The position numbers were made by a program, and so were the translations under genes. A stretch of DNA of 64,000 bases from Arthrobacter sp. V1I9 (lineage in GTDB: Bacteria > Actinomycetota > Actinomycetes > Actinomycetales > Micrococcaceae): positions 3,596,001 to 3,660,000 of the forward strand of contig NZ_JAUSYU010000001.1 in assembly GCF_030817075.1 (NCBI RefSeq), in the 5' to 3' direction. Below the pieces are notes generated by a model, which saw only the letters and a list, made by a program, of their open reading frames with translations, searched no databases and had not been told where the DNA came from. Below are positions 13,761-17,506 of this stretch, one piece after another; the first letter of the stretch is position 1; each line of letters begins with the position of its first letter.

Positions 13761-14657
13761 ATGACTGCCATCCAAGCTGAAACGTCCCTCCCCCAGCCGC
13801 CCACCACGGTGGAGCATGTCCTGACCTTGGACTGCAGCGAGTCGCCGGGTATTGTCCACGCCGTCTCCGGCTTCCTGCTGGAGCACGGCTGCGACATCAT
13901 CGACAACCAGCAGTTCGGCGAGCGTTCGGAAAAGCACTTTTTTATGCGGGTGCATTTTGCGTCCGACGGCGATGCCTCCACGGCGGACACGCTGCGGGCC
14001 GCTTTCGGTCCCGTTGCCGAGAAGTTTGGGATGCGCTGGCGGCTGGAGCCGCAAGGTTCCAAGCGGCGCGTGTTGATCATGGTGTCCAAGTTCGGGCACT
14101 GCCTTAATGACCTGCTGTTCCGGGCGCGCATCGGCGAACTCCCGGTGGACGTGGTGGCCGTGGTGTCCAACCACACGGACCACCAGGCGCTGGTGGAGTG
14201 GCACGGGATCCTGTTCTTCCACGTGCCGGTCACTTCTGACACGAAGCCGGAGGCCGAGGCGCGGTTGCTGGAACTGGTGGACGAGTTCGATGTGGAACTC
14301 GTGGTGCTGGCCCGGTACATGCAGGTGCTCAGCGATAACCTGACGCGCAAGCTGGACGGGAAGGCCATCAATATCCACCACTCGTTCCTGCCCAGTTTCA
14401 AGGGCGCCAAGCCGTACCACCAGGCCTACGCGCGCGGCGTGAAGACCGTGGGAGCCACGGCCCATTACGTGAACAGCGAACTGGATGAGGGCCCGATCAT
14501 CTCCCAGCAGACCGTTGAGGTGGACCACACGTACGGGCCCGAGGATCTGGTGGCTGCCGGCCGCGACACCGAATGCAAGGCCCTGTCCAACGCCGTCCGC
14601 TGGCACTGCGAGGGCCGGGTCATCCTGCTGGGAAACCGGACCGTGGTGCTGCGGTAG
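13761..14657 (+). CDS. purU: Formyltetrahydrofolate deformylase
   Basis: 298 residues. N-terminal ACT domain (residues ~15-90) and C-terminal formyl transferase/hydrolase domain with INIHHSFLPSFKGAKPYHQA and DEGPIISQ, which carry the catalytic His and Asp. It hydrolyses 10-formyl-THF to formate and THF. In methyl-group catabolism this returns THF to SoxA and GlyA when one-carbon units exceed need, which explains its place as last gene of the operon. Normal length. Confidence 0.95.
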   Translation: MTAIQAETSLPQPPTTVEHVLTLDCSESPGIVHAVSGFLLEHGCDIIDNQQFGERSEKHFFMRVHFASDGDASTADTLRAAFGPVAEKFGMRWRLEPQGSKRRVLIMVSKFGHCLNDLLFRARIGELPVDVVAVVSNHTDHQALVEWHGILFFHVPVTSDTKPEAEARLLELVDEFDVELVVLARYMQVLSDNLTRKLDGKAINIHHSFLPSFKGAKPYHQAYARGVKTVGATAHYVNSELDEGPIISQQTVEVDHTYGPEDLVAAGRDTECKALSNAVRWHCEGRVILLGNRTVVLR

Positions 14658-14662
14658 CGACG

Positions 14663-14758
14663 CGCTCTCACCTGATGCCGGTTTTCAGGCGATCCTCTAT
14701 CCCTTAACGTCGGTTTTCAGGGCATCCTCTAGCCCTTAGTGCAGGTTTTGCTGTGGCG
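14663..14758 (+). repeat. Tandem array of three ~32-bp repeats (left array)
   Basis: Three head-to-tail units at 14663-14694, 14695-14726 and 14727-14758. Each begins CTCT and carries GGTTTT in the middle; the first contains CACCTGATGCCGGTTTTCAG, and units 2 and 3 are diverged. A fourth start is fused to a hairpin (14757-14782). The same unit recurs in opposite orientation at 15856-15932, beyond the DUF559 gene. Unit 1 and its best right-hand partner match at 29 of 30 positions. Confidence 0.85.
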
Positions 14759-14782
14759 CTCTCTCACCTTGGTGAGGGAGCG
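14757..14782. terminator. 12-bp hairpin after the glyA-sox-purU operon
   Basis: An almost perfect stem (one G-T wobble) with a 2-nt loop around CTCTCACC/GGTGAGGG, about 100 bp after the purU stop. No T-tract follows. It merges with the end of the repeat array, so it may be a repeat-derived structure rather than a classic terminator. Confidence 0.45.
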
Positions 14783-14838
14783 TTACGGCGTTGCGAGCCG
14801 CTTCGTCCTGACGACATTACGTTGACGCTTAGCCGCCG

Positions 14839-15789
14839 CTACGCAAACCCCGACGCCTGGGCCGGGTCAAGCCAGCCATTCCGGAGGGCGCGCCTGATGC
14901 GTTGTACCGCTGAGCGGAAGCCGTCTGCATAGTCGTCCTTGTCGAAAACGAGGACCGTCCAGTCTGCTGACTCGAATGCTTTGTCCCGTCTCCTGTCTGA
15001 GTGGATCTGTGCGTCGCCGAGGTGATGTTCGCCGTCGTACTGGATAGCGAGACGGCGGTGGCGGTAGCCGAGGTCGGCCGACGGCGACCGGGCGTCTCCG
15101 GCGCGCAACGGCAACTGGAGCTCGGGCTCGGGCAAGCCGGCGTCACCGATTGCGAGCCGGAGCATTGTTTCGGGCGCCGAGTCGGCACCCACCCGCATCA
15201 GATCCAACGCTTCGCGGGCGCGAACGATGCCTTGGAGATTCGGGTGGCGACGTACCAGGATGCGCAGCTCCGTCAGCGTGGCATGGGGCTCCGTCCGTCC
15301 TTCGAACGCGGCCCGCGGGGCGCGAACCAGCTCGTCCCCCATGCTCACCAAGTCCGGGAGCGGCAGGACGCGGGCCATATCCAACCACGTGCGGGACCGG
15401 GTGCTCAGGTGAATGCCGTCAACGCATTCAGTCTCTTCTTTCAGTGCCAGGACGGTGTGCCCCACCACGCCCTTCCGGCGTACCGGGGGCAGCGAACGCG
15501 GCTTGCTCAGATGGAGCTCCGTGGAATCGCCCAGCCACGGCGGCAACAGTTGGCACCGAAGCCTGGCCGCGGTGACGTGAGAAATCCACGCGCCCGGCGA
15601 CGCAGCAGATAACGCCCTGGCTGCGCCTTCCAGATCGAAGTCCCAGCCTGCCGGACGGTAGAGACCACGGCCCACGTTGATGACATCCTTGCGGCGAAGC
15701 CTGCCCACACTGATGCCGGAGGCCCGGGCTGTGCTGAAGGTAAAAGGAGCGGCCGCCAACGGCGGGGGCAAGACTTGGCGCTTTGGCAT
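14839..15789 (-). CDS. AbiEi-type wHTH plus DUF559 (Vsr-like endonuclease fold) protein
   Basis: 316 residues. The N-terminal ~55 residues read like the AbiEi antitoxin winged helix (TARASGISVGRLRRKDVI, VGRGLYRP). The C-terminal ~95 residues look like DUF559, a Vsr/PD-(D/E)XK-like nuclease fold, with D in SADLGYR and the segment LAIQYDGEHHLGD. Such proteins are common in actinobacteria and usually have no assigned function. No AbiEii-type toxin lies beside it. It sits alone between two inverted arrays of a 32-bp repeat, and a DnaA-box-like 9-mer lies 40 bp upstream. Start at 15789 has no clear SD. Confidence 0.7.
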   Translation of the reverse strand: MPKRQVLPPPLAAAPFTFSTARASGISVGRLRRKDVINVGRGLYRPAGWDFDLEGAARALSAASPGAWISHVTAARLRCQLLPPWLGDSTELHLSKPRSLPPVRRKGVVGHTVLALKEETECVDGIHLSTRSRTWLDMARVLPLPDLVSMGDELVRAPRAAFEGRTEPHATLTELRILVRRHPNLQGIVRAREALDLMRVGADSAPETMLRLAIGDAGLPEPELQLPLRAGDARSPSADLGYRHRRLAIQYDGEHHLGDAQIHSDRRRDKAFESADWTVLVFDKDDYADGFRSAVQRIRRALRNGWLDPAQASGFA

Positions 15790-15828
15790 GCTGGCATTTT
15801 GCCCTGTTCCAGCAGGACGCTGCAGAAG

Positions 15829-15837
15829 TTATCCACA
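15829..15837 (+). other. Single perfect DnaA-box-like 9-mer
   Basis: TTATCCACA matches the DnaA box consensus exactly, upstream of the DUF559 gene and beside the right repeat array. A lone match is expected by chance about once per 130 kb, so it is recorded only as a site. Confidence 0.3.
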
Positions 15838-15855
15838 ACCAGCCGCTGGGCTTCT

Positions 15856-15932
15856 GGAGGTGAGAGAAGGTCGCCTGAAAACCGGCATCAGGTGAGAGAG
15901 GATCACCCGAAAATACGCGTTAAGTGAGAGAG
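15856..15932 (-). repeat. Tandem array of the 32-bp repeat (right array, inverted)
   Basis: On the minus strand, full units at 15932-15901 and 15900-15869 are followed by a partial unit to 15856. Both full units start CTCTCTCAC and the second contains CTGATGCCGGTTTTCAGGCG. The array is inverted relative to 14663-14758, and both arrays are preceded by CGACGC, so the outer boundaries match. The region to 15958 contains only a G-rich stretch after the array. Confidence 0.85.
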
Positions 15933-15958
15933 CGTCGGGTGGGGGTGGGTGGGGCTGA

Positions 15959-17506
15959 CTATTTGGGTTGGAGTGCAGCCAGCCTCACCGCGAGGTGCAA
16001 GGCCGGCAGCCTGCCGGTGCCGCGGGGGTCGCCGCCGCAGAGAGAAAAAATCCGCTGCAGCCGCTGATGCATGGACTGCCGCTCCACATGGAGCTCCCGC
16101 GCGGCCTGCGCGGTGTTGCAGCCGGAGTCCAGCCACACCCGCAGCGTCTCCAGGAGCTTGGACTGGCGCTGGGCGTCATGCTGTAGAACTGCGGCCAGCT
16201 GTTGGTCGATAAAGTCGCGGCGCAGTGCCTCGTCCATCGACTGGACGGCGAACCGCTCCACCGCGAACGCCTGCGCATCAAGAACCTTCCCGGGGCCGCT
16301 TGCCACTGCCTTGGAACGGCCGACGTCGGCAGCAAGTTCCAGCGTGAGCCTCGCCTCGGACAGCGACCACGGCGCGAAGGAAATCCCCGAGGCAACAGGC
16401 CCTACTGCGCTGACAGTTCCCTCTGGCACTTCCAGTGACTGCAGACCGTCCACAATCTTCTGCCGCTCGTCGTGGGCGTTCCCGGAGCGGAGGACAGCCA
16501 GGGCCAGCAGCTCGGCATTGTCCGCGTAACTGGCGCCGTGCTGCCCGCCCGGGTCCAGGAGGTGCTCCACGTTCCGCTGAAGTTGCTTGGAGGCAGAGGA
16601 ACGGACCACCACGGCCACAACCTGCGCTGAAACCGGGATGCCTGCGGCGGGAGCCAGCTCCTGGAGCCGCCAGTGTTGCTTGCCGGAATCGATGGCCCGG
16701 ATCAGGGCAGCGCCGGCCATCTCCTTCAGGCCGGGCGGCATTCGCTGCAGCAGGGCGAGGGCCAGGATGTCCACAGACCGGTTGCCGGCGATCCTCGCCA
16801 GATTCACATCGGCGTCACCCCGGACCTGCAGTGTCAGGCGTGCCGACGGGATGCCGCGCACGGGCACCTCAATGTGGACAGTTCCCTGACGGTCCCCGGC
16901 AGCGTCGCCGGCGACGGGTTCGGATGACTCAGCGTCCTCCGCAGGTTCGGCGCTTGCGAGGGTGATCCCGGCGGTGGACGTGAGCACCACTTCCGCGTCG
17001 GTGGCCGCGGCAAGAACTGCCAGAATCCGGTCCAGGCTGCCGCCGTGGGCGAGCTCCACCGCCATGGCGTGGCTGGCCTGGTCCGCCTGCTGGAGCTGGG
17101 CCGCAGACTGGCTGACCAGCTGTGAGTTGATTGCCTCCATGACCGCGACGAAGGGAACTACGCGGCGCAGCTCGATCAGCGGAAGCCCGGCCTCCTCGGC
17201 AGCGGACACCATTGACGAAGGTATGGAGGGCAGAACGCTGCCGGTCTCGATGGCGAGCGCCGCCACCCCACGCCTGGCCAGGTCCCGAATATAGCCCGTG
17301 CGGCGCTCGTCCGGCGCCAGCGCGAGGGCCTGCCCGCCGGTGAGCAGCAGCTCACCGCCGCCAAGCAACGACGCAATATCCAGAACCTCGCTGGAGTGGA
17401 TCCAGCGGAGCTGCGTCTGCTGAACAACTCCAGCCCCCGCACGAACCACCGGATCGGCGGCAGTGAAGGTGGGATGTTTCAGGACGTCATCCAAACGAAC
17501 CGGCAT
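15959..17506 (-). CDS. PucR-family transcriptional regulator
   Basis: 515 residues from ATG 17506 (SD GGAG). The N-terminal PucR domain (residues ~5-125) begins VRLDDVLKHPTF. A GGDEF-like central region and a C-terminal PucR HTH (residues ~455-510, NTAQAARELHVERQSMHQRL) follow. PucR proteins respond to purine catabolites. It is divergent from an NCS1 nucleobase permease and a PuuE-like enzyme, so it probably controls uptake and breakdown of a purine, allantoin, hydantoin or pyrimidine. Confidence 0.87.
   Translation of the reverse strand: MPVRLDDVLKHPTFTAADPVVRAGAGVVQQTQLRWIHSSEVLDIASLLGGGELLLTGGQALALAPDERRTGYIRDLARRGVAALAIETGSVLPSIPSSMVSAAEEAGLPLIELRRVVPFVAVMEAINSQLVSQSAAQLQQADQASHAMAVELAHGGSLDRILAVLAAATDAEVVLTSTAGITLASAEPAEDAESSEPVAGDAAGDRQGTVHIEVPVRGIPSARLTLQVRGDADVNLARIAGNRSVDILALALLQRMPPGLKEMAGAALIRAIDSGKQHWRLQELAPAAGIPVSAQVVAVVVRSSASKQLQRNVEHLLDPGGQHGASYADNAELLALAVLRSGNAHDERQKIVDGLQSLEVPEGTVSAVGPVASGISFAPWSLSEARLTLELAADVGRSKAVASGPGKVLDAQAFAVERFAVQSMDEALRRDFIDQQLAAVLQHDAQRQSKLLETLRVWLDSGCNTAQAARELHVERQSMHQRLQRIFSLCGGDPRGTGRLPALHLAVRLAALQPK

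Follow-up and report, generated by a model that had tools for sequence, protein, structure and literature searches.

Arthrobacter sp. V1I9 carries, within the 64,000-nt stretch of contig NZ_JAUSYU010000001.1 analysed here (positions 3,596,001 to 3,660,000; the window), a gene for a 316-aa protein that lies between two inverted arrays of a 32-bp repeat. The association of gene and repeat is strong, recurrent and well supported. The host genome is a 4.05-Mb single contig, and the closest named relatives of the protein are from Arthrobacter and Pseudarthrobacter. G and L numbers are labels for the genomes and loci in the analysis, G000 being the window's own genome. The features of the locus are listed below.

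13761..14657, plus strand: purU, formyltetrahydrofolate deformylase; a neighbour that marks the site of the element and lies outside it.
14659..14754, plus strand: left array, three 32-nt units (14659-14690, 14691-14722, 14723-14754) with the heads GACGCGCTCTCAC, GATCCTCTATCCC and CATCCTCTAGCCC.
14757..14782, no strand: centre palindrome CGCTCTCTCACCTTGGTGAGGGAGCG, two facing heads, resembling the apex of gene-free elements.
14839..15789, minus strand: the gene; 316 aa, AbiEi-like in residues 3-199 and a nuclease of the Vsr/DUF559/MTES_1575 type in residues 204-307.
15829..15837, minus strand: DnaA-box-like site TGTGGATAA (TTATCCACA on the plus strand), 40 nt ahead of the start codon.
15841..15936, minus strand: right array, a half unit (15841-15872) and two full units (15873-15904 and 15905-15936).
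15959..17506, minus strand: gene of a PucR-family regulator (pucR); also a neighbour that marks the site and lies outside the element.

The repeat unit has a conserved head (consensus GACGCTCTCTCAC) and a less conserved tail. The left-array units are diverged and read toward the 3' end of the gene, with repeat-model matches at C1:3610659, 3610691 and 3610724. The right array has the opposite orientation, with heads that point at the gene from its opposite flank (matches at C1:3611874 and 3611906). The preliminary description, made from the sequence alone, had reported 32-bp arrays inverted around a DUF559/AbiEi gene, with three units to the left and two and a half to the right, and this was confirmed; the agreement at 29 of 30 bases between units of the two sides and the CGACGC at both outer ends are readable directly in the sequence. 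The palindrome at 14757-14782, CGCTCTCTCACC-TTGGTGAGGGAGCG, is an addition to that description; it lies between the left array and the 3' end of the gene, and of its 12 pairs one is mismatched. Complementarity is 74% across 73 nt for the arms (14658-14730 and 15865-15937) and 92% across 37 nt for the array core (14665-14701 and 15862-15898). The inverted match between the two 350-bp flanks has a local score of 29.5 and exceeds chance: the maximum was 16 in 1000 shuffles, and 14 for 149 pairs of stretches taken at equal spacing from the rest of the window.

The fold of the protein combines the AbiEi antitoxin type with the Vsr type, and the acidic active-site residues are conserved, with D239 and E207 as candidates for catalysis. 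A Pfam scan (E<=1) returned MTES_1575 and DUF559 only, both below the Pfam cut-offs; DUF559 is matched at E<=0.001 by 29 of 52 proteins. The nearest solved nuclease fold is that of the homing endonuclease I-Bth0305I, while 3hrl is nearer by sequence. An AbiE type IV toxin-antitoxin pair was considered and rejected: the AbiEi fold is present, but no gene for the AbiEii nucleotidyltransferase toxin stands beside the 316-aa gene, whose flanking genes are purU and pucR. The locus also differs from AbiE in the fused nuclease domain and in repeats that flank both sides and occur genome-wide.

A protein search yielded 80 named loci, of which 75 are at least 61% identical. Arrays with a 32-bp period were found within 500 bp on both sides of the gene in 54 of these 75 loci and on one side in 18 (19 of 302 distal control windows were positive). 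The period of 32 was present in 126 of 150 flanks, against at most 20 of 150 for any other period from 20 to 59. Heads in the Arthrobacter group are clade-specific (CTCTCTCAC, CTCCCTCAC, CGCTCGCTCAC, CGCCCGCTCAC, CGCCCCATCAC and others), and over 56 loci they differ, of 10 positions, by a mean of 0.72 between the two sides of one locus versus 1.55 across loci. Own-genus relatives at 51-60% and at about 38% identity have repeats on both sides as well, though the period scan had scored them bare. The paralog repeat sequence is GGGGTCACTTAYGGCC, and the repeats displayed are hairpins of about 60 nt, such as AACTAGGTAGCGCTAAGTGTCGTT..AACGACACTTAGCGCTACCTAGTT (L208) and CAACGCGGGGTCACTTAYGGCCC.. 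(L201-L203). Among 26 paralogs scored (L034 was dropped for its short flank), 16 were above the maximum inverted control and 22 above the control in either orientation. At L182 and L186 (same genus, g29) the inverted repeats of the bracket measure about 140 nt and are not palindromic in themselves, in the manner of classical terminal inverted repeats.

Relatives at E<=1e-15 occur in 107 of 149 genomes of the order and in 49 of 64 genera. Order-wide flanks were taken from 29 returned loci and from 60 chosen places, mostly high-scoring. A number of these loci have matched arrays of unlike sequence, with periods of 16, 18, 31, 33, 51 and 73-74 bp, among others, and often with a GTGATCATG-like head. 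The other-genus test set comprised 65 loci from 22 genera, short flanks and duplicates being excluded, with 975 between-genus swaps as control; the inverted match of upstream and downstream flanks lay above the swap maximum in 24 loci (16 of the 22 genera) and above the 99th percentile in 44, and in 42 loci the match in one orientation or the other lay above the maximum for that orientation. In another family of the order, the pattern of the G030 arrays has 22 matches in G030, no fewer than 7 of them at the gene, 42 in G202 and 0 to 6 in the other 11 genomes, with 0 in the control (kinship ignored).

For other phyla, a DUF559 consensus led to 45 records of a plasmid collection, of which 20 were examined (L370-L381, L391-L398). 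Among the first 12 records, 10 have a hairpin with an arm of TCTCCC or CCTCCC no more than 360 bp from the DUF559 gene, compared with 37 of 1854 windows from nine control stretches. With the rule for CTCCC-type hairpins fixed beforehand, 6 of 8 records of a second set had one, giving 16 of 20 overall; the two loci from E. coli and two from A. brasilense had none. The hairpins, e.g. CCCTCTCCC..GGGAGAGGG, adjoin DUF559 genes of Alphaproteobacteria, Neisseria and Deinococcus, and three Deinococcus records of the second set have them on both sides. In Sinorhizobium (L374) the DUF559 gene is bracketed by a 114-nt inverted repeat with 4 mismatches.

The repeat also occurs away from the gene. Gene-free elements are built of one or more units, a centre palindrome and one or more units facing back, typically over about 60 to 200 bp, and two that were folded gave long hairpins. 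Searched with R1, a sequence model from clade-1 units, the own genome shows 50 matches (E<=1) along the whole chromosome. Of 61 genomes of the genus, and with kinship ignored, 11 have a gene of 73% identity or more, and 10 of these have at least 5 R1 matches (26 to at least 115 each), versus 7 of the 50 others. These seven are G004, G039, G041, G042, G044, G051 and G056; G044 and G056 have CTCTCTCAC-headed arrays at a 69-70% identical gene. The hairpin pattern of the 51-56% paralog reaches at least 5 matches in 15 of 18 genomes with that gene versus 0 of 43 without it (maximum 4; kinship ignored), and the reversed pattern gave 0 matches in the same genomes. R2, the model of the CGCCCGCTCAC clade, has at least 3 matches in 16 genomes, 13 of them with a gene at least 61% identical (kinship ignored). 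Only the own genome combines at least 5 R1 with at least 3 R2 matches; it holds a second gene, L002, with CGCGCTCAC-headed arrays, and its 6 R2 matches may be those arrays. In the same genome the element centre at L051/L059 (C1:3558768-3558923) and L062 (C1:3110302 onward) is taken by another palindromic sequence, TGAACTGGTCCCCGG..AGTTGGACTGAGAAATTCAGT or a near variant of it, as though the apex of these gene-free elements were the target of a second element.

Elements are mostly intergenic: the open reading frame span at the midpoint is below 150 aa in 14 of 23, against 73 of 800 random points. This placing would suit an operator or regulon, in which the protein is a DNA-binding regulator like AbiEi, the flanking arrays serve it as operator and terminator, the dispersed elements are target sites or host-gene terminators, and the nuclease domain is secondary with nothing mobilised. 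According to parts of PMC7319586, the AbiEi promoter contains two 23-bp inverted repeats to which AbiEi itself binds, and for Rv2827c the bound sites are two pairs; in the window the right array is upstream of the gene and the centre palindrome downstream. The inward-facing arrays stand on both sides in 54 of 75 loci, however, and not at the promoter alone; the bracket persists across clades whose repeats have radically different sequences and periods; copy number runs from a few to more than 100, and the nuclease residues are conserved. A purely regulatory role is regarded as unlikely. The DnaA-box-like site has 9 of 9 letters in 72 of the 75 loci at 61% identity or more and 8 of 9 in the remaining 3 (controls, 0 of 368 windows at 9 of 9); of 89 loci across the order, 46 match it at 8 or 9 of 9 letters. 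The site gives a hint of a replication link, and it may be part of the promoter. A DnaA-box-like TGTGGATAAC about 40 nt 5' of the start codon was found in paralogs too.

The site between purU and pucR was compared in five genomes without the gene there. A gene-free element with the same kind of outer ends occupies it in three: those of G020 and G042 have the head CTCTCTCAC, and that of G050 has CTCCCTCAC, the same as the arrays around G050's own gene (L105). In this one contrast (G050) the motif at a fixed site follows the resident enzyme. The window's own locus consists of a centre palindrome of the gene-free type, then the gene, then the right array, so that the forms with and without the gene look like two states of a single element; the G050 element has a very similar centre at the same site.

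Such paired states are also the ground for a homing explanation, in which the nuclease cuts the gene-free element, the gene is copied in by double-strand break repair with the arrays as homology arms, and the repeats spread otherwise. It is favoured by the resemblance to I-Bth0305I, by one site being known with and without the gene, and by the position of the gene inside the element. It leaves unexplained why gene-free repeats abound mainly alongside the cognate gene, and no more than 2 such genes (E<=1e-60) were found in any of the 61 genomes, despite dozens of possible targets. Homing is given a low probability.

Of the 80 loci, 33 have the neighbourhood of L232 (fhs and ino1), 16 lie beside purU and/or pucR and 11 are in a third. 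The window gene is 76-82% identical in its place (16 loci), purU 89-96% (12 loci) and pucR 72-89% (13 loci). Orthologs tend to stay in place while the arrays change. The preliminary description had the gene and its arrays moving or evolving as one cassette. Joint evolution is borne out, in that most orthologs keep the bracket with clade-specific sequence, dispersed copies of the motif occur mainly in genomes with the cognate gene, and a gene-free element of the same kind stands at the same place in other genomes; movement as a cassette would be a rare event, since 60 of the 80 loci fall in three gene neighbourhoods. The preliminary description had set against itself a repeat occurring freely and orthologous loci lacking it: gene-free copies are indeed abundant, while orthologous loci as a rule have the repeat. 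Over 400 kb compared between the relatives G072 and G015 (mapped flanks 72-93% identical), 12 and 11 elements were found, and 0 in shuffled sequence; unit numbers differ at several of them, and one that is single in one genome is double in the other. At G072:C1:2961801-2963213 two arrays in inverted order surround MerR-like and membrane-protein-like frames (by eye) with no nuclease gene, possibly a composite element.

Several observations weigh against a nuclease that drives the turnover of its own repeats. No binding, cleavage or new insertion was observed. Of the 12 elements of G072, nine recur at the corresponding position in G015 and two could not be placed, so that movement is slow, and the sole presence/absence case (G072 3296536-3296686) shows unrelated sequence, with no clean empty site and no target duplication. 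At two of the five purU sites, in G022 and G068, there is other sequence and no element of this kind. Three of the 75 loci are without any array, and 21 of the 65 other-genus loci do not exceed the 99th percentile of swaps. The correlation of protein distance with head distance is only modest (Mantel r 0.29 over 56 loci, a value reached in 7 of 2000 permutations). G050, the eleventh clade-1 genome, has only 4 R1 matches, its arrays bearing another head. Repeats were found with no intact cognate gene, R1 in G004, G039, G041 and G042 and R2 in G006, G043 and G057, and the co-occurrence tests ignore phylogeny. The last two points also favour hitch-hiking, in which an unrelated host or mobile function spreads REP-like (repetitive extragenic palindromic) repeats, the gene was inserted or captured, and shared history gives the rest; the genomes are related, so that counts are not independent. 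This is judged improbable in view of a bracket that recurs with different repeats in 16 of 22 other genera, in same-genus paralogs and at DUF559 genes of other phyla. G004, G006, G039 and G042 have 12 to 31 R1 or R2 matches, and stop-bearing relatives of the gene are present in G039 and G042. At L298 (G022) and L299 (G068) a different palindromic repeat, TTTGAACGGCCCACC..GGTGGGCCGTTCA, directly follows purU, and the purU 3' site is for this reason possibly a hot spot for such elements.

A nuclease partnered with its repeats has its closest parallel in REP sequences and their REP-associated tyrosine transposases (RAYT). Parts of PMC2817692 and PMC3116915 describe a gene between two inverted repeat copies, a repeat dispersed intergenically as paired palindromes, an abundance that tracks the cognate gene, and orthologous genes that stay put while flanking repeats differ. 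The inverted bracket, the intergenic paired palindromes and the cognate-gene abundance are common to REP/RAYT (REPtron), to REP doublets forming hairpins (REPIN) and to the Arthrobacter system, and the fixed gene place with changing arrays resembles RAYT genes and REPs (PMC2817692, in part). The enzyme here is an AbiEi-Vsr nuclease, however, and not a Y1/HuH transposase; a single unit of the array clade is not itself a hairpin, and the units form strict 32-bp tandem arrays. RAYT membership was rejected, the IS200/IS605-type Y1 transposase (PF01797) being absent from the Pfam scan and the fold being AbiEi plus Vsr. Neither the GTAG tag nor the single-unit palindrome of REPs is present in the unit consensus GACGCTCTCTCACTTAATGCnGGTTTTCGGGC. 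Quicker divergence than in adjacent genes, a further RAYT feature, is seen here relative to purU, whereas the identity range of pucR overlaps that of the gene.

CGTC-tagged REPs are, in the parts of PMC3733652 available, palindromic, intergenic and arranged in head-to-head pairs, with no dedicated transposase reported. Many Arthrobacter elements likewise start with GACG and finish with CGTC, but unit length and stem are unlike the description of the four families in those parts, where actinobacteria do not appear. Of the 16 DUF559 loci from other phyla that have a hairpin, only three (L374, L377, L396) show the CGTC tag by eye. These REPs are a lead, not an identity. Vsr, DUF559 and MTES_1575 nucleases and EDxHD homing endonucleases have the nuclease fold and conserved acidic residues in common with the protein. 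Vsr mends mismatches and homing enzymes serve introns; neither is known to have a cognate dispersed repeat family, and the literature searches listed none. Of the features of classical insertion sequences and miniature inverted-repeat transposable elements, inverted ends are present, and there is no target-site duplication in the single polymorphic case aligned. By defining features the system is neither a RAYT system nor an AbiE pair, and works most like REP/RAYT with an unrelated enzyme.

The explanation proposed is a REP-like selfish or semi-domesticated system with an AbiEi-Vsr nuclease as partner enzyme, the protein reading the repeats and driving their turnover; we consider the chances for and against it evenly balanced. 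It draws on the anatomy, the conservation of the bracket, the cognate co-occurrence, the two states of one site, the head of one element matching the resident arrays, and the kept nuclease residues. Binding, cutting, the strand used, the mechanism of copying, mobility and a replication link through the DnaA-box-like site are what we infer. Recognition of the repeats is plausible, given the AbiEi-type DNA-binding fold. The AbiEi half would bind the conserved head (GACGCTCTCTCAC in this clade), and the 32-bp spacing, about three helical turns, would place neighbouring copies on one face of the DNA. Nicking or cutting at the repeats would fall to the Vsr-type half, probably where heads that face each other fold into a hairpin or cruciform. 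Units could then be added, removed and homogenised by repair or copying, which would occasionally seed a new palindromic intergenic element. The gene-bearing locus would be one such element, with the gene held between centre palindrome and right array, and gene-free elements would be the non-autonomous form, served in trans. The AbiEi precedent of paired inverted repeats and the homing-enzyme relative make this mechanism reasonable.

Bacterial chromosomes commonly contain dispersed palindromic repeats, many families of which are without a known spreading enzyme. Taken with the similar layout of related genes that have other repeats, the present locus points to a type of association not described before, in which a nuclease is paired with a family of short DNA repeats that may be mobile. 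More tentatively, and with somewhat less than an even chance, Vsr/DUF559-type nucleases across several phyla may be dedicated partners of REP-like palindromic repeats, reading a lineage-specific motif through the DNA-binding half and driving copying and concerted evolution; they would then be a second, non-homologous solution to REP/RAYT and candidate enzymes for REP families that lack a transposase. If so, DUF559, a common protein without known function, would gain a role, and a class of repeat families could be predicted from one gene and its flanks. The spread of transposase-less REPs would become testable with single enzymes and short DNA substrates, and the matching of motif to enzyme lineage would provide a natural series of recognition pairs.
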